From Bacteroidota bacterium (GTDB taxonomy: Bacteria; Bacteroidota; Bacteroidia; Bacteroidales; F082), in assembly GCA_020444415.1 (NCBI GenBank), contig JAHLLA010000001.1, positions 186,001 through 250,000 of the forward strand: a DNA stretch of 64,000 nucleotides, in the 5' to 3' direction. Made by a program: the position numbers and the translations under genes. Of this stretch, positions 32,733-38,708 are shown piece by piece (the first letter of the stretch is position 1; the number at the start of each line of letters is the position of its first letter). Under the pieces are notes generated by a model that worked only from the letters and a program-made list of their open reading frames with translations, made no database searches and had not been told where the DNA came from.

Positions 32733-34154
32733 ATGGAAACGACTTTACAAGACCTCGGAATAACAACAGGAGATGTGATCTTAGAGATCAGTTACCTGGT
32801 AGCAGCCATTCTTTTTGTGATTGGATTGAAATTGATGAGCCACCCGGAAAGTGCAAAGAAAGGAAACCTATGGGCTGCCGTTGGTATGGGTTTGGCTATG
32901 GTAACTACATTATTTCTGCATCGTGGTGTATCAGGACAAACAATTTCCCTATTGAACGGTATAGTGATTGTCTCTGCCATCATTTTTGGTGGTATTATCG
33001 GAACTGTCATTGCACGCCGTATTAAAATGACAGCCATGCCTCAATTGGTATCATTTTTTAATGCCACGGGCGGCGCTGCATCCGCATTGGTAGCCCTGAT
33101 GGAATATTCAAATCCTGATAACTCCTCTGCAACAGTAACACTTTTAGGACTCATTATTGGAGCCATTGCATTTAGCGGTAGTATGATCGCTTATGGAAAA
33201 TTAGACGGCAAAGTAGGCGACATCTTTGCCAAGTGGACCACCTATTTTAATATTTTCATGCTGGTTTTAATTACCGCTCTTACGGTTTATATGCTGGCAT
33301 TTGACCATGATATGGCGACACAAACCATGTTATCCTACATTCTTTTAGGACTCGCACTCATTTATGGTATTATGTTCGTAATGCCTATTGGCGGTGCCGA
33401 TATGCCGGTGGTTATTTCCCTGCTGAACTCTTTAACTGGTATTGCAGCAGCTATGGCAGGTTTCATATACAGCAACCAGGCGATGATCCTGGGAGGTATT
33501 TTTGTAGGTTCGGCAGGTGCTATTCTCACCCTTCTCATGTGTAAAGCCATGAACCGTTCGTTATTGAATGTGATCATCGGCGCTTTTGGAGGAGGTGGTG
33601 CAGCTGCGGATAAAGACCAGGGCACGATCAAAGAAATTTCCTTAAGTGATGCATCTGTTTTACTCAGCTATTCGCAAAAAGTAGTGATCGTTCCCGGTTA
33701 TGGTCTCGCAGTCGCCCAAGCACAATATGCCACCAACGACTTGGTGAAATTACTTGAAGATAAAGGAGTAGAAGTAAAGTTTGCCATTCACCCTGTTGCG
33801 GGGCGTATGCCAGGACATATGAATGTATTGCTGGCTGAAGCCGATGTACCTTATACCAAACTGGTGGAAATGGACGATATCAACCCGGATATGCCAAATA
33901 CGGATGTAACCATCGTAGTGGGTGCCAATGATGTGGTGAATCCGGCGGCACTGGATGATCCTTCAAGCCCGATTTATGGTATGCCGATCATCAATGCGCA
34001 TGAATCCAAAAATATCATCGTGATGAAGCGTGGTATGGGTAAAGGGTATGCAGGTATTGAGAACTTCTTGTTCTTTAATGATAAAACTCGGATGCTTTTT
34101 GGCAATGCTAAAGACTCCATTCAAGCACTTGTAAATGAGATCAAACAATTGTAA
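32733..34154 (+). CDS. pntB: NAD(P) transhydrogenase beta subunit
   Basis: This 473-residue protein has eight or nine membrane helices in its N-terminal two thirds, then a soluble NADP(H)-binding domain III (VVIVPGYGLAVAQAQY; HPVAGRMPGHMNVLLAEADV; VIVGANDVVNPAA; VMKRGMGKGYAG). With PntAA and PntAB it forms the enzyme that uses the proton gradient to make NADPH from NADH. It complements the bifurcating NfnAB further along the window. Confidence 0.96.
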   Translation: METTLQDLGITTGDVILEISYLVAAILFVIGLKLMSHPESAKKGNLWAAVGMGLAMVTTLFLHRGVSGQTISLLNGIVIVSAIIFGGIIGTVIARRIKMTAMPQLVSFFNATGGAASALVALMEYSNPDNSSATVTLLGLIIGAIAFSGSMIAYGKLDGKVGDIFAKWTTYFNIFMLVLITALTVYMLAFDHDMATQTMLSYILLGLALIYGIMFVMPIGGADMPVVISLLNSLTGIAAAMAGFIYSNQAMILGGIFVGSAGAILTLLMCKAMNRSLLNVIIGAFGGGGAAADKDQGTIKEISLSDASVLLSYSQKVVIVPGYGLAVAQAQYATNDLVKLLEDKGVEVKFAIHPVAGRMPGHMNVLLAEADVPYTKLVEMDDINPDMPNTDVTIVVGANDVVNPAALDDPSSPIYGMPIINAHESKNIIVMKRGMGKGYAGIENFLFFNDKTRMLFGNAKDSIQALVNEIKQL

Positions 34155-34186
34155 TCAGGAATTTTAACACAAAAATTAACAAACGA

Positions 34187-34220
34187 TTTGTTGCTTGTTA
34201 AAAATTAATTTTTAGATTTG
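34187..34220 (+). promoter_or_regulatory. Promoter of the phenylalanine/tyrosine operon
   Basis: TTTGTTG (34187-34193) and a perfect TAnnTTTG box TAGATTTG (34213-34220) are separated by 19 bases counting from TTG at 34191-34193. Start of transcription is expected near 34227, just before the first leader peptide at 34240. Confidence 0.7.
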
Positions 34221-34239
34221 ACCCATCATAATTAACACG

Positions 34240-34293
34240 ATGCATACATTTTCAACATATTTCAGCTATTATTTCTTCTATTTTTTAAGATAG
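34240..34293 (+). CDS. Leader peptide 1, Phe/Tyr-rich (attenuator)
   Basis: This 17-residue open frame reads MHTFSTYFSYYFFYFLR. Nine of 17 residues are Phe or Tyr (five Phe, four Tyr), and their codons come in runs (TAT TAT TTC TTC TAT TTT). It lies between a promoter and an intrinsic terminator upstream of prephenate dehydratase. This is the form expected of an attenuation leader whose translation stalls when charged tRNA-Phe or tRNA-Tyr is low. Confidence 0.88.
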   Translation: MHTFSTYFSYYFFYFLR

Positions 34294-34295
34294 AA

Positions 34296-34354
34296 CAGGG
34301 CTGGAATAAATTGAATTTAAAATATTTTAACCCTGCCGAAAAGCGGGGTTTTTT
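34296..34354 (+). terminator. Attenuator terminator 1 with competing pairing
   Basis: Terminator hairpin AACCCTGC (34329-34336) / GCGGGGTT (34343-34350, with one G-T pair), then a T-run to 34354. CAGGG (34296-34300), immediately after the leader stop, can pair with CCCTG (34331-34335), which would disrupt the terminator. A ribosome at the stop codon would mask CAGGG and favour termination, while one stalled on the aromatic codons would leave it free. Confidence 0.82.
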
Positions 34355-34365
34355 ATTGCAAAACA

Positions 34366-34452
34366 ATGGAATATAGCACTTTTAATACATATTATTATTT
34401 CTGGTATTTCAATTTCAGAAAAAAACCGGGACGATTGAGAAGCATTAAATAG
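34366..34452 (+). CDS. Leader peptide 2, Tyr/Phe/Trp-rich (second attenuator)
   Basis: This 28-residue open frame begins MEYSTFNTYYYFWYFNF and ends in a basic tail (RKKPGRLRSIK). Residues 3-17 include five Tyr, four Phe and one Trp. It starts just beyond the T-run of terminator 1 and is followed by a second terminator, so it is a second attenuation leader in series. The anti-terminator half-site lies inside its codons 21-23. Confidence 0.88.
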   Translation: MEYSTFNTYYYFWYFNFRKKPGRLRSIK

Positions 34453-34498
34453 TTAAAAAATAATACTTTGAAAGTCCCGGATAAAACCGGGATTTTTT
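34426..34498 (+). terminator. Attenuator terminator 2 with 7-bp anti-terminator
   Basis: Hairpin TCCCGG (34475-34480) / CCGGGA (34487-34492) followed by TTTTTT (34493-34498). CCGGGAC (34426-34432), inside leader 2, is perfectly complementary to GTCCCGG (34474-34480). Stalling at the Tyr/Phe/Trp run leaves 34426-34432 free to form the anti-terminator; reaching the stop at 34450 covers it. prephenate dehydratase starts 17 bases after the T-run. Confidence 0.87.
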
Positions 34499-34514
34499 AA
34501 TTAAAAAAGGGAAG

Positions 34515-35372
34515 ATGACAATTAGTATACAAGGTGTAAAAGGCGCATTTCACGAAGAAGCAGCCATCAATTATTATGGTGGAGAAATTGAAATCCTGCC
34601 GAACATCTCATTTTTTAAAGTGATTGAAAGTATCAGGGATAACAATGCCAAAGCAGGTATCATGGCAGTCGAGAATACCATCTCGGGCACCATCCATTCC
34701 AATTTAAACCTGATCAGGGAATCAGGATTAAGCATCTGCGGTGAAGTGTACCTGCAAATTGAACAAAACCTGGTTGGATTGCCCGGCACAGGCATTGAAG
34801 ATTTGGTTGAAGTACATTCACATTATATGGCCATTGACCAATGCCGGAGTTTTTTCAGAAATCATCCACATATCAAACTGATTGAATCGGATGATACCGC
34901 TTTGAGCATGAAAGAAATTGCAGAAAAACAACTTACAAATGTCGGCGCCATCGGAAGCAGGATCGGTGCTCATCACTATGGTTTGAACATCATTGCTGAA
35001 AGTATTGAAACAAATAAGAAAAACTATACACGATTTCTGATTGTTGAAAGGAAAAACAAAACCGGTTCTGACAAGATTAACAAATCATCTATTTCGATGA
35101 GCTTACCCAACCAAAAAGGCAGTTTGTCGCAGGTACTTAGTGTGATCGCCTTTTATAATGTGGACCTGAGCAAGATCGAATCTGTTCCGGTAGTAGGTGA
35201 ACCCTGGCATTACAGATTCTATATTGATGTGCTATTTGACAATTACGAAAAATATAAAAGTATGCTGCAGGCAATTGGTCCTTTGACTGATAAACTCCAG
35301 ATACTGGGAGAATATGTGTCTGGTTCCAAATCATTTGAACAAATTCATTCACAATCAAAAATAGAATCCTAA
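34515..35372 (+). CDS. pheA: Prephenate dehydratase
   Basis: This 285-residue enzyme converts prephenate to phenylpyruvate, the committed step to phenylalanine. The catalytic domain begins ISIQGVKGAFHEEAA, with VENTISGTIHSNLNL and the family motif NYTRFLIVERK. The C-terminal ACT domain (about 190-270) has NQKGSLSQVLSVI and KIESVP, in the position of the ESRP regulatory motif, consistent with Phe feedback. There is no chorismate mutase fused; that activity is on the DAHP synthase three genes on. Its stop shares a base with the next start (TAATG). Confidence 0.94.
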   Translation: MTISIQGVKGAFHEEAAINYYGGEIEILPNISFFKVIESIRDNNAKAGIMAVENTISGTIHSNLNLIRESGLSICGEVYLQIEQNLVGLPGTGIEDLVEVHSHYMAIDQCRSFFRNHPHIKLIESDDTALSMKEIAEKQLTNVGAIGSRIGAHHYGLNIIAESIETNKKNYTRFLIVERKNKTGSDKINKSSISMSLPNQKGSLSQVLSVIAFYNVDLSKIESVPVVGEPWHYRFYIDVLFDNYEKYKSMLQAIGPLTDKLQILGEYVSGSKSFEQIHSQSKIES

Positions 35373-36544
35373 TGAACATAAAACCTGCTGATAGGATCGG
35401 AAAAGTAAAAGAATATTATTTCTCAAAAAAGCTTGCTGAAGTTCATATGCTGAAGGAACAGGGAAAACCCATTATCAACCTGGGTATCGGCAGCCCTGAG
35501 CTCCCCACCCACCCTGATGTAATTGATGAGCTCAACCGATCGAGTCGCGAAAAAGGCAGCAATTACTACCAATCATACCGTGGCATACCGGAACTCAGAG
35601 AAGCATTTTCAACCTGGTACCAGGATATTTATGGGGTTGATCTAAATCCTGCAAATGAGATATTACCGCTCATAGGCTCCAAAGAGGGTATCATGCATAT
35701 CAGTATGGCTTTTGCCAATCCGGGTGACCAGGTGCTGATACCAAATCCCGGTTATCCAGCATATAGCTCCGTTTCGAAACTGCTCAACCTTGATATCCAA
35801 TATTATAATTTAAAGGGAGTCAATAATTGGCTGCCCAATATCAGCGAATTGGCAACACTTGCTCAGGACAATTGCAAGATCATCTGGCTGAATTATCCAC
35901 ATATGCCCAGCGGTGCCAAGGGTAATGCAGCAGCGTTCGGAGAATTAATTGAATTTGCCCAATTGAGGAATATATTAGTAGTTAATGACAATCCATACAG
36001 TTTGATTTTAAACAGCGAACCCATGAGTTTACTGAATGGAATTGTATCGAAAAGCCATGTGCTGGAATTGAATTCGCTGAGCAAATCGCACAATATGGCT
36101 GGGTGGCGAATCGGCATGGTGGCCGGAAGTGAAGAAAACATCAATCACATACTGAAAGTGAAAAGCAATTTCGATTCGGGTATGTTCAAGCCTTTGCAGC
36201 AGGCAGCAGCAAAAGCACTGCAGTTGCCACGTTCATGGTATGATGAAATCAATAAGCTATATGGCGAAAGGCGTAAACTGGTCTGGCAAATAATGGATCA
36301 ACTGGGTTGCGCCTACGATAAAAACACATCGGGGATGTTTGTTTGGGCGAAAGTGCCATATAACTACAAAGATGGTGCTGCATTGTCAGACGAATTACTA
36401 TATGTGCATTCCATTTTTACCGCTCCGGGCTTTATTTTCGGAAGCAATGGAAATAATTATATACGTATTTCGCTTTGCGCTGATGGAAATCAGCTAAAGG
36501 AAGCATTAAAGAGACTGGAAACAATTAAAAAAGTAATTGCATGA
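35372..36544 (+). CDS. PLP-dependent aminotransferase, class I/II (probably aromatic)
   Basis: This 390-residue fold-type I aminotransferase shows INLGIGSPELPTHPDVI at the N-terminus, IPNPGYPAYSS, a substrate-loop NYPHMPSGAK (usually NYPxNPTG), VVNDNPYS, and the PLP lysine in LNSLSKSHNMAGWRIGM. Placed between prephenate dehydratase and prephenate dehydrogenase, it probably transaminates phenylpyruvate and 4-hydroxyphenylpyruvate to Phe and Tyr. Substrate is inferred from context. It overlaps tyrA by 4 bases (ATGA). Confidence 0.9.
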   Translation: MNIKPADRIGKVKEYYFSKKLAEVHMLKEQGKPIINLGIGSPELPTHPDVIDELNRSSREKGSNYYQSYRGIPELREAFSTWYQDIYGVDLNPANEILPLIGSKEGIMHISMAFANPGDQVLIPNPGYPAYSSVSKLLNLDIQYYNLKGVNNWLPNISELATLAQDNCKIIWLNYPHMPSGAKGNAAAFGELIEFAQLRNILVVNDNPYSLILNSEPMSLLNGIVSKSHVLELNSLSKSHNMAGWRIGMVAGSEENINHILKVKSNFDSGMFKPLQQAAAKALQLPRSWYDEINKLYGERRKLVWQIMDQLGCAYDKNTSGMFVWAKVPYNYKDGAALSDELLYVHSIFTAPGFIFGSNGNNYIRISLCADGNQLKEALKRLETIKKVIA

Positions 36545-37380
36545 AAATTTGTATCATAGGCTTGGGACTGATGGGCGGTTCCATGGCCATCGACTTAAAA
36601 AAAAGAAACTACGCCACGCATATCATTGGTTACGACCAGAGTAATTTGCATGCGCAAACGGCCAAGAATATCGGTATCGTTGATGAAATTATGGGTCTCG
36701 AAGATGCCGTTAGCTCTGCTGAAATGATTGTTCTTGCCATCCCGGCAGATGCCACGCTGGTTATTTTGCCCAAAGTACTCGACCTGATCGAAAACCAGGT
36801 AGTAACTGATGTTTGCTCCATCAAAGGAAATTTAGCCGAGCGCATCAAATACCATCAGAAAAGAGCCAACTATGTAGCTGCCCATCCGATGGCCGGAACT
36901 GAACATACAGGCCCTTGGGCCGCCAAATCAGGTATGTTCGACGGGAAGGCGGTGATTTTTTGTGATGCCGAAAGCAGCAACGAAGAAGCGCTTCATACCG
37001 TAAGAGATATGTATGACCATTTGCATATGCGCCCGGTGTATATGAACTCATTTAATCATGACGCCCACGCGGCTTACATTTCGCACATTTCACATATCAG
37101 TTCTTTCGCACTGGCACTTACTGTGCTCGACAAAGAAAGAAATGAGAAAAATATATTTGATTTGGCAAGCGGTGGATTTGATTCGACGGTTCGTCTTGCG
37201 AAAAGTTCTGCCGATATGTGGACGCCTATATTCGCGCAGAATGCGGATAATGTGGTGACGGTGCTGGATACGTATATCAGTAAACTCCAGGACTTTAAAA
37301 AAGCTATCAAAGAAAACAATAAAACATCTATCAATCAATTAATTACCGAAGCTAATAAAATCAAAAAAGTTTTATCCTAA
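36541..37380 (+). CDS. tyrA: Prephenate dehydrogenase
   Basis: This 279-residue enzyme oxidises prephenate to 4-hydroxyphenylpyruvate with NAD(P)+. Motifs: N-terminal Rossmann IIGLGLMGGSMAIDL, VTDVCSIKGN, AAHPMAGTEHTGPWAA (catalytic His region) and HDAHAAYISHISH. No ACT or chorismate mutase domain is fused. The gene starts inside the end of the aminotransferase gene and is followed after 11 bases by the bifunctional DAHP synthase. Confidence 0.94.
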   Translation: MKICIIGLGLMGGSMAIDLKKRNYATHIIGYDQSNLHAQTAKNIGIVDEIMGLEDAVSSAEMIVLAIPADATLVILPKVLDLIENQVVTDVCSIKGNLAERIKYHQKRANYVAAHPMAGTEHTGPWAAKSGMFDGKAVIFCDAESSNEEALHTVRDMYDHLHMRPVYMNSFNHDAHAAYISHISHISSFALALTVLDKERNEKNIFDLASGGFDSTVRLAKSSADMWTPIFAQNADNVVTVLDTYISKLQDFKKAIKENNKTSINQLITEANKIKKVLS

Positions 37381-37391
37381 CAACTAAAATC

Positions 37392-38510
37392 ATGGAAGTA
37401 CAACTCGATATCAGAAAATTTTCAGACTGGGAAATCGGAAATACTGACAAACCTTTTATAATCTCCGGACCCTGTAGTGCCGAAACCGAAGAACAAACCC
37501 TCAAATCGGCTCATGAATTGAACAGGCTTGGCATACAGGTTTTCAGGGCAGGAATTTGGAAGCCGCGCACCCGCCCCAACTCATTTGAAGGGGTGGGCAG
37601 CAAAGGTTTGAAATGGCTCAAAAAAGTGAAAAAAGAAACCGGCATGCTCACCAGTACCGAAGTCGCCAATGTAAAGCATGTGTACGAATCGTTGAGAGCC
37701 GGTGTGGATATATTGTGGATAGGTGCCCGGACCTCTGCCAATCCGTTTGCCATGCAGGAAATAGCTGATGCCTTGCAGGGAATGGATATTCCGGTATTTG
37801 TAAAAAACCCCGTAAACCCGGATGCCGATTTATGGTTAGGGGCGATTGAAAGACTTCAAAAAGCAGGTATCTCAAGGATCGGGGCTATACACCGTGGTTT
37901 CTCCAGTTTCGACCACAGCATTTACCGTAATCCGCCTTCCTGGCAAATTCCTATCGAACTGAAAAGAAGAATCCCTGACCTGCCCATTATTTGCGATCCG
38001 AGCCATATTGGAGGAAAAAGGGAGCTGCTGCAAAGTATTTCTCAAAAAGCTATGGACCTGAATTACGATGGACTGATGATCGAATCACACCCGGACCCTG
38101 ATAATGCCTGGAGCGATGCACAACAACAGGTAAGCGCCGCTTCTTTACAAATTATCATTGAAAGCCTGGTCTTGCGACAGGTGAATCCGGAAGGCATTTC
38201 GTACGATACGCTTGAGGATTTAAGATTCAAAATTGACAAATACGACAATGAATTATTAGATATTTTACAAAAAAGAATGGAAGTGGCAGAATCCATCGGT
38301 ACCTATAAAAAGCAAAGCAATATGACTATTTTACAGCCCAACCGTTGGGAAGAAGTGGTTGAAAATAGTTTGGTAAAAGGAAGGAAAAGAGATTTAAGCG
38401 ATCGCTTCACTTCCAAGATATTCAAAGCTATTCATGAAGAGTCCATCAGTAAGCAAACCGCTATTATGAATGGGCAACCAATCGTAAATGGACATAGTAA
38501 AACATCTTAG
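37392..38510 (+). CDS. Bifunctional DAHP synthase / chorismate mutase (type II mutase)
   Basis: This 372-residue fusion has residues about 1-265 as a DAHP synthase of the short AroA(I-beta)/KDO8P-like type: PFIISGPCSAETEEQ, FRAGIWKPRTRPNSFEGVG, VKNPVNPD, and IICDPSHIGGKRE. Residues about 275-360 are an AroQ chorismate mutase: EDLRFKIDKYDNELLDILQ, RMEVAESIGTYKK. It supplies both the first step of the shikimate pathway and the chorismate-to-prephenate step, so the four genes here cover chorismate to Phe and Tyr. A linked mutase is known to mediate feedback in related fusions. Confidence 0.93.
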   Translation: MEVQLDIRKFSDWEIGNTDKPFIISGPCSAETEEQTLKSAHELNRLGIQVFRAGIWKPRTRPNSFEGVGSKGLKWLKKVKKETGMLTSTEVANVKHVYESLRAGVDILWIGARTSANPFAMQEIADALQGMDIPVFVKNPVNPDADLWLGAIERLQKAGISRIGAIHRGFSSFDHSIYRNPPSWQIPIELKRRIPDLPIICDPSHIGGKRELLQSISQKAMDLNYDGLMIESHPDPDNAWSDAQQQVSAASLQIIIESLVLRQVNPEGISYDTLEDLRFKIDKYDNELLDILQKRMEVAESIGTYKKQSNMTILQPNRWEEVVENSLVKGRKRDLSDRFTSKIFKAIHEESISKQTAIMNGQPIVNGHSKTS

Positions 38511-38585: not shown

Positions 38586-38651
38586 TTGATTCAATCAAAT
38601 AATACTTCTTGGTGGTGGCTTTTTTCGCTTACAAATAGTGAGGAAAGATAA
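38586..38651 (+). CDS. trpL: trp leader peptide with three consecutive Trp codons
   Basis: The open frame from TTG 38586 to TAA 38649-38651 reads MIQSNNTSWWWLFSLTNSEER (first Met from TTG). TGG TGG TGG at 38610-38618 precede an intrinsic terminator and trpE, the classic form of a trp attenuator. No in-frame ATG is present. An ATG at 38578 is out of frame by one base because of a run of five A (38581-38585); with six A it would read MKKLIQSNNTSWWW. So the start is either TTG, or the run has lost an A in this genome or in the assembly. Confidence 0.78.
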   Translation: MIQSNNTSWWWLFSLTNSEER

Positions 38652-38672
38652 CCTATCATTTAAAAAAAATAG

Positions 38673-38708
38673 AAACGGCTTGTCGAACTCACGGCAGGCC
38701 GTTTTTTT
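38673..38708 (+). terminator. trp attenuator terminator
   Basis: 13-bp stem AAACGGCTTGTCG (38673-38685) / CGGCAGGCCGTTT (38692-38704), with two G-T pairs and a six-base loop, followed by a T-run ending at 38708. It lies between the Trp-rich leader and trpE. A weak competing pairing is GTGAG (38638-38642) with CTCAC (38688-38692). Confidence 0.85.

Follow-up and report, generated by a model that had tools for sequence, protein, structure and literature searches.

The intergenic region considered here lies in a 64,000-nt stretch of contig JAHLLA010000001.1 from a Bacteroidota bacterium (hereafter the window), between pntB, which ends at 34154, and pheA, which starts at 34515. Its 360 nt (34155-34514) hold two leader-terminator modules on the + strand, in the 5' to 3' order Bacteroidota-type promoter, leader 1, terminator 1, leader 2, terminator 2 and pheA. 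The promoter (34191-34220, +) is comprised of a TTG at 34191-34193, which we take to be the Bacteroidota -33 element, 19 intervening nt, and a -7 box, TAGATTTG (34213-34220), with a predicted transcript start at ~34225. This box exactly matches TAnnTTTG, the Bacteroidota -7 consensus, which is placed at -12 to -5 in the available passages of a Flavobacterium psychrophilum transcriptome study (PMC9723704). An imperfect inverted repeat, TTAACAAACGATTTGTTGCTTGTTAA, was seen by eye on the upstream side of the promoter (34176-34201), and is possibly a weak terminator of pntB or an operator.

The first leader ORF (34240-34293, +) encodes the peptide MHTFSTYFSYYFFYFLR, ending at a stop codon, in which 9 of 17 residues are Phe or Tyr. 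It is followed by terminator 1 (34329-34350, +), an 8 bp stem and then TTTTATT (-12.2 kcal/mol; z -3.2 against shuffles). The start codon of the second leader ORF (34366-34452, +) is situated 16 nt past the stem of terminator 1; its product, MEYSTFNTYYYFWYFNFRKKPGRLRSIK, again closed by a stop codon, has 10 aromatic residues (F/Y/W) among its first 17, one of them Trp. Terminator 2 (34470-34497, +) has an 11 bp stem with a T run at its end (-15.5 kcal/mol; z -4.1 against shuffles). A sequence-only reading of this DNA had proposed two Phe/Tyr-rich leaders, a promoter and two terminators within ~330 bases before pheA, and all these elements are indeed present, with both terminators ending in T runs. 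A module, defined as an ORF with at least 6 aromatic residues in 12 plus a terminator at most 95 nt downstream, arose in 0 of 5000 dinucleotide-preserving shuffles of the 360-nt region, and an ORF with 9 aromatics in 12, the density of both real leaders, in 6 of 5000. The two leader-terminator modules at the pheA locus are therefore confirmed as real.

When both strands of the whole window were scanned for such modules, only one other match emerged, before trpE, which we read as a Trp leader in the wrong frame. The candidate Trp attenuator at that position (38586-38706) is single: a leader ending in IQSNNTSWWWLFSLTNSEER and a stop codon is followed by a 15-bp terminator stem (38671-38706); this leader has no in-frame ATG, and the nearest common start is a TTG at 38586.

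The pheA gene (34515-35372, +) encodes a prephenate dehydratase (Pfam PF00800, E 2.8e-52), with an ACT domain match below the cut-off (PF01842, 22.1 bits against 27). Downstream of it (35372-38510, +) are genes for an aminotransferase (PF00155), TyrA (PF02153/PF20463) and a DAHP synthase-chorismate mutase (PF00793+PF01817), each overlapping its neighbor or 11 nt from it, so that the stretch from pheA to the DAHP synthase-chorismate mutase is likely to be one operon. Its Pfam content implies that it serves phenylalanine and tyrosine synthesis and feeds the common aromatic pathway. The locus thus has the hallmarks of an attenuator in that the leader ORFs are rich in codons for the product amino acids, and that an intrinsic terminator lies between leader and first structural gene. 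With regard to other amino acids, the window genome (96.2% complete) has no match to HisG, IlvD or homoserine dehydrogenase, against 13, 14 and 14 of 14 in control genomes; it seems to be without histidine, branched-chain and threonine synthesis, yet to have kept aromatic synthesis under attenuator-like control.

Predicted competing RNA folds in the two modules

Each module was examined for the alternative pairings of a classical attenuator, namely a 1:2 protector, a 2:3 antiterminator and the 3:4 terminator. In module 1 the protector hairpin joins 34251-34267 to 34299-34315 (+); it is found in the minimum free energy fold of 34250-34339 (-18.0 kcal/mol) and also in a fold of 291 nt. Region 2, the 5' part of the antiterminator (34295-34308, +), begins 1 nt after the stop codon of leader 1 and pairs with 34323-34335 (p 0.02); the corresponding 2:3 fold, in which 34296-34300 pairs with 34331-34335 beside an adjoining helix, has a predicted stability of -10.8 kcal/mol. 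In module 2, region 2 (CCGGGAC, 34426-34432, +) is located within leader 2, beginning ~27 nt before the end of the ORF, and pairs with 34474-34480 (p 0.005; -15.5 kcal/mol). With the leader removed and segment 4 as yet unmade, the predicted fold is the 2:3 hairpin in both modules, in agreement with the earlier claim that each terminator has a competing partner.

The protectors differ in strength between the modules. If leader 1 is left free, its 1:2 protector is predicted to form and pre-empt the 2:3 pairing. The equivalent in module 2, between UUUCUGG (34398 on) and region 2, is found in the 291-nt fold but absent from a shorter one, and is hence regarded as weak; the 1:2 protector is thus strong in module 1 and weak in module 2 of the window, with aggregate support across modules from other loci (see below). 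Once segment 4 is present, the equilibrium fold of module 2 is the terminator, which beats the antiterminator, and antitermination would therefore have to win kinetically, as it does in known attenuators.

Distribution and history of the double leader

To place the locus in a wider context, pheA loci were assembled from three sources: 1) relatives of the window genome and its family; 2) named genome contigs, which were the best matches to the window PheA; and 3) an even draw across the phylum (60 further upstream stretches), which contributed 89 loci, taken as the best-scoring of the 340 genomes, out of 395 searched, that had a match. After removal of 3 duplicates, and exclusion of 5 loci with too little upstream sequence and 2 partial matches, the survey comprised 200 distinct loci, nearly all from Bacteroidota, with at least 150 nt upstream of pheA. 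One aromatic module was recovered in 138 of these upstream regions, a tandem pair in 24 (20 by script, and L049, L050, L082 and L094 by eye), and none in 38. The last figure is an upper bound, since L005, in which an aromatic leader and a bulged hairpin are visible by eye, was scored by the script as having none. Conservation of the leader in relatives, on which the sequence-only reading had hinged, was thus borne out, with a Phe/Tyr leader and terminator before pheA in 162 of 200 loci; of the controls, 3 of the 4000 shuffled sequences and 2 of the 200 reverse strands contained a module, and none contained two. Six further loci considered as possible doubles (L019, L087, L088, L090, L096 and L105) were left as single on inspection by eye. 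Three of these (L087, L088 and L090), from assemblies titled Saprospiraceae or Chitinophagales, carry, as judged by eye, recurrent short palindromes (CCCATGGATTTATCCGTGGG type) in the stretch that separates the terminator from pheA.

The doubles are unevenly distributed: they account for 4 of the 37 relative and family loci, 19 of the 74 on named contigs and 1 of the 89 in the phylum draw, making them rare away from the relatives of the window, at least among the best-scoring loci of the draw. Ancylomarina and Pontibacter ramchanderi are among the named doubles, as are several assemblies with Bacteroidales or Saprospirales in their titles. Within the window family the double is found only in the window's own genus (L001 and L002), with the other scored family loci having one module or none. 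Two of the four genomes of this genus have no pheA match, and in the only other genome that does, that of L002, leader 1 differs at 0 of 54 nt. Among 21 doubles from named contigs (two of them duplicating other loci), an aminotransferase is encoded downstream or nearby in 15, TyrA in 14 and a DAHP synthase in 19, with some loci being cut by contig ends. As many loci are related to each other, none of these counts of loci is a count of evolutionary events.

In a quick tree of 139 PheA proteins, from the loci with the gene itself, the 24 doubles require 10 changes against a mean of 22.6 for shuffled states, and 6 of the 10 are forced by well supported branches. On this tree the double arrangement is clustered, yet has been gained or lost several times. 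Within the window clade, modules in the same position are more alike across loci (similarity 0.435) than modules in different positions (0.188), the observed labelling being the only one of 256 to score as high. This implies that the two modules have been kept as separate parts and that the pair is older than the clade, and it rules out a recent duplication of one module into two in this clade. Across 12 lineages, the similarity within a locus (0.151) is slightly above that between same positions (0.138), so that independent duplications might have occurred among them. The window genus stands apart from its family in PheA, and a test on 38 chosen proteins (20 from the family and 18 others), picked after earlier trees had been seen, rejects monophyly of the family (p-AU 2.5e-60); the operon has probably been exchanged between lineages, leader included. 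One locus that groups with the window genus in PheA, L043, comes from an assembly titled Chlorobiota, which is possibly misnamed.

The window and its sister genome differ at 6 positions in the 360-nt leader region against 110 in 846 nt of pheA. We dropped this near identity as proof of constraint on the leaders, because the tract of low divergence, which runs from ~600 nt upstream of pheA to the start of the gene (0-4 differences in each 100 nt, as opposed to 7-22 in flanking bins), covers the last 240 nt of pntB in addition to the leader. Shared between two species of the genus, the tract looks like recombination.

The promoter box recurs along with the leaders. A TAnnTTTG is present within 70 nt before 95 of the 162 first or only leaders, as against 481 of 8100 shuffled 80-nt segments, and 73 of 97 such boxes are placed 24-36 nt before the leader ATG. 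Between the two start codons of the 20 scripted doubles, where 8-60 nt separate terminator 1 from the second ATG, a TAnnTTTG was found in none, while 245 of 2000 shuffles of those stretches contain one; a perfect box is missing even before leader 1 in 10 of the 20. As far as the TAnnTTTG consensus can tell, one promoter would serve both modules, and a single promoter box upstream of both implies that they act in series.

Pairing specificity and module design

If the predicted pairings are functional, each region 2 should fit the region 3 of its own module better than that of another. In comparisons of 4425 module pairs with unlike arms, the own 2:3 partners are more stable than swapped ones in 4312 cases, equal in 5 and worse in 108. 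In a strict set of 19 modules sharing no 11-mer, the own partner is better in 165 of 171 comparisons, equal in 1 and worse in 5, and 0 of 20000 random assignments of partners are as stable on average. The 1:2 pairing behaves likewise in this set, with the own partner better in 153 of 171 and 0 of 20000 permutations as low. Further, the sum of own 2:3 energies within a locus is below the swapped sum in 19 of the 20 scripted doubles, L074 being tied. The predicted antiterminator pairing is thus module-specific, and the 1:2 pairing is supported in aggregate; locus by locus, a codon-shuffle test of 1:2 was passed by 9 of 40 modules of doubles and 51 of 142 others. When the doubles are taken alone, in necessarily small sets, the 2:3 matching is clear only for proximal modules: permutations as low numbered 174 of 20000 for 2:3 and 4842 of 20000 for 1:2 in 5 proximal modules, and 2498 and 834 of 20000, respectively, in 4 distal ones.

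Compensatory change was assessed on an alignment of 11 of the 24 proximal modules (A3), drawn from the window clade, with the window included, and L052; two of them, L049 and L050, were placed by hand. Base pairs were counted on A3 only, as the MAFFT alignments built for module 1 and for distant module 2 sequences (A1, A2 and A4) had arms out of register. The 2:3 helix gave mixed measures on A3: 85.2% of its cells are paired and the covariation score reaches 0.184, each value being equaled or exceeded in 3 of 500 shuffles, whereas its 2 pairs changed on both sides and 4 further pair types are equaled by 293 and 415 of 500 shuffles. One of its pairs (22-79) occurs as G-C in 7 of the 11 sequences and as A-U in the other 4, and the 3:4 pair that shares a column with it (79-95) is C-G in 5, U-A in 4 and unpaired in 2. 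With this qualification, a competing 2:3 antiterminator joins the leader and terminator as an attenuator feature of the locus. In the helix of terminator 2, 94.8% of cells are paired, and both sides have changed in 6 of 7 counted pairs; neither value is reached in any of 500 shuffles.

The placement of region 2 relative to the leader also bears on function. Among the 143 of 182 scripted modules with a 2:3 p of at most 0.05, the distance from the last aromatic codon to region 2 has a median of 9 nt (quartiles 8-11). From its footprint geometry, a ribosome with the last aromatic codon in its A site would have its front edge about at region 2. Distal and proximal modules of the 20 scripted doubles differ in where region 2 falls: of the 20 proximal modules, 17 have it within the ORF, whereas in distal ones it starts beyond the stop codon in 13, within the ORF in 5 and across the stop in 2, as against 33, 74 and 35, respectively, among the 142 other modules. 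This distal/proximal order is reversed in L021 and tied in L074.

Two proposed attenuators in series: alternatives and precedents

The leaders, the terminators, the matched regions 1, 2 and 3, the single promoter box and the occurrence in relatives are all directly seen in the sequences. They are best explained, with a probability of about 0.85, by two complete ribosome-mediated transcription attenuators that would act in series behind one promoter to control the Phe/Tyr operon, a reading that the sequence-only account had anticipated and that gains support from the match of both 2:3 and 1:2 partners and the absence of a second promoter box from the scripted doubles. Transcription would begin near 34225, and a ribosome on leader 1 would meet the Phe/Tyr run, stalling there if charged tRNA-Phe or tRNA-Tyr were short. 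The run ends ~10 nt before region 2, roughly the distance to which a ribosome stalled there would reach ahead, so that region 2 should stay free; stalling would thereby free it to pair with region 3 and keep terminator 1 from forming. With plentiful amino acids the ribosome would reach the end of the leader, region 2 would be either covered or sequestered in a pairing with region 1, and the polymerase would be stopped at terminator 1. Polymerases that pass terminator 1 would face the same test at leader 2, and expression would be the product of promoter rate, readthrough 1 and readthrough 2, so that leakage would be lower and the response steeper than with a single module. In a toy race model with parameters of our own choosing, meant as illustration and not as evidence, squared readthrough doubles the logarithmic sensitivity. 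Leader translation, stalling, termination, amino acid sensing and the multiplication of readthrough are steps that we infer.

The alternative that survives best, though it is unlikely, is that the modules read partly different signals and form an AND gate, with leader 2, for instance, also monitoring tryptophan. In its favor, Trp occurs in 13 of 20 proximal but only 5 of 20 distal leaders of the scripted doubles (49 of 142 other leaders), and the DAHP synthase of the operon feeds all three aromatic amino acids; yet the loci behind these counts are not independent, Phe and Tyr are mixed in both kinds of leader (means of 3.75 and 3.4 per distal and 4.8 and 3.8 per proximal leader), and the TGG codon in the window is also part of region 1 (UUUCUGGU with ACCGGGA), so that the Trp may be present for the sake of pairing. 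More doubtful still is the proposal that the proximal module alone regulates, the distal leader and terminator being vestigial or redundant and serving mainly to lower basal transcription, with no part in sensing. The preponderance of single modules over doubles (138 to 24), the lack of significance of distal modules alone in the strict 2:3 permutation, and the weaker terminator 1 (-12.2 against -15.5 kcal/mol) are compatible with it, and the aromatic richness of scripted distal leaders is no independent evidence against it because the script selects for aromatics. Against it, distal modules in the window clade have kept position-specific sequence, and it is module 1 that has the clearest set of 1:2, 2:3 and 3:4 folds in the window and the best Rfam resemblance (to Phe_leader, at a score below the cut-off). 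The leaders are short aromatic, hydrophobic ORFs in AT-rich DNA, but that these are no attenuators at all, and instead short hydrophobic peptides (e.g. of the type I toxin kind) or small RNAs, is highly improbable given that such modules precede pheA in 162 of the 200 distinct loci, and given the spacing from run to region 2, the partner-matched regions 1, 2 and 3, and the lack of any Rfam family over its cut-off in the window.

Known families offer a partial precedent for the proposed series attenuators. No Rfam family, T-box leaders included, matched the window above its cut-off, and in 20 of the 24 double loci the only such match was a tRNA. Below its cut-off of 55 bits, Phe_leader (RF01859) scores 27.0 bits (E 0.016) in module 1 and 16.9 bits in module 2; the module 1 match spans the full model (positions 1-125 of 125) and surpasses the other families listed there in both bit score and E-value. 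The enterobacterial pheL has a Phe-rich leader, a terminator and competing hairpins before pheA. The window is like the Phe leader attenuator of RF01859 in leader, terminator and competing hairpins before pheA, and unlike it in mixing Phe and Tyr, in having two modules in series and in its Bacteroidota host.

Tandem attenuators as such are already known, which narrows the novelty of the locus and qualifies the earlier view of attenuators in series as a rarity. The Salmonella mgtCBR leader, described as singular in the available text, shares with the window two short ORFs, each part of an attenuator; its signals are different, ATP and proline, their action is additive, and intrinsic-terminator-like structures are stated to be absent in that text (PMC3641672). 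In contrast, both window leaders are aromatic-codon-rich, specifically in Phe and Tyr, and both are followed by intrinsic terminators; across doubles, Trp is commoner in proximal leaders. The two attenuators upstream of msrD, called a double-lock by their authors, are also alike, but there stalling is induced by macrolides, and the second attenuator controls msrD alone within the mefA/msrD operon (PMC10314930). Other studies note that some rimP leaders have a further terminator in tandem (PMC2965389) and that two leader peptides are involved in the translational control of ermB (PMC8274638). A same-signal tandem amino-acid attenuator was not found in the open-licence literature searched, which is no proof of absence.

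The companion claim, that attenuation is little explored in Bacteroidota, holds to the extent that it is little documented in the literature searched, but it had already been noted in the phylum. The 2021 transcriptome of Flavobacterium psychrophilum suggested leader-peptide attenuation before amino-acid operons and reported a conserved pheA 5' element without an Rfam match, which is like the window in gene and phylum; the available passages mention a structured element and describe no tandem (PMC9723704). Leader-like sORFs are mentioned in 5' UTRs of Bacteroides thetaiotaomicron (PMC7366714). A 2010 survey knew of no leader-peptide attenuation shown before outside Proteobacteria and Actinobacteria, ermC excepted (PMC2965389). 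A single pheA module is ordinary; what is new is the predicted series of two complete, partner-matched modules in several Bacteroidota lineages.

It is tempting to go further, and to view same-signal series attenuators as a recurrent, selected design of Bacteroidota in which the stages are built differently, the first as a coarse gate and the second as a sharper one, jointly replacing an aromatic repressor protein; we hold this tentatively, at somewhat less than even odds. The survey itself yields a wide range of predicted pheA attenuators, their pairings matched to their own partners, in a phylum where leader-peptide attenuation is little documented. The single-module relatives would provide natural controls for the double leader. 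Theory, in the passages available, ties the sensitivity of an attenuator to the number and fraction of its regulatory codons (PMC1183508), and the stacking of whole attenuators may represent another way of raising it.
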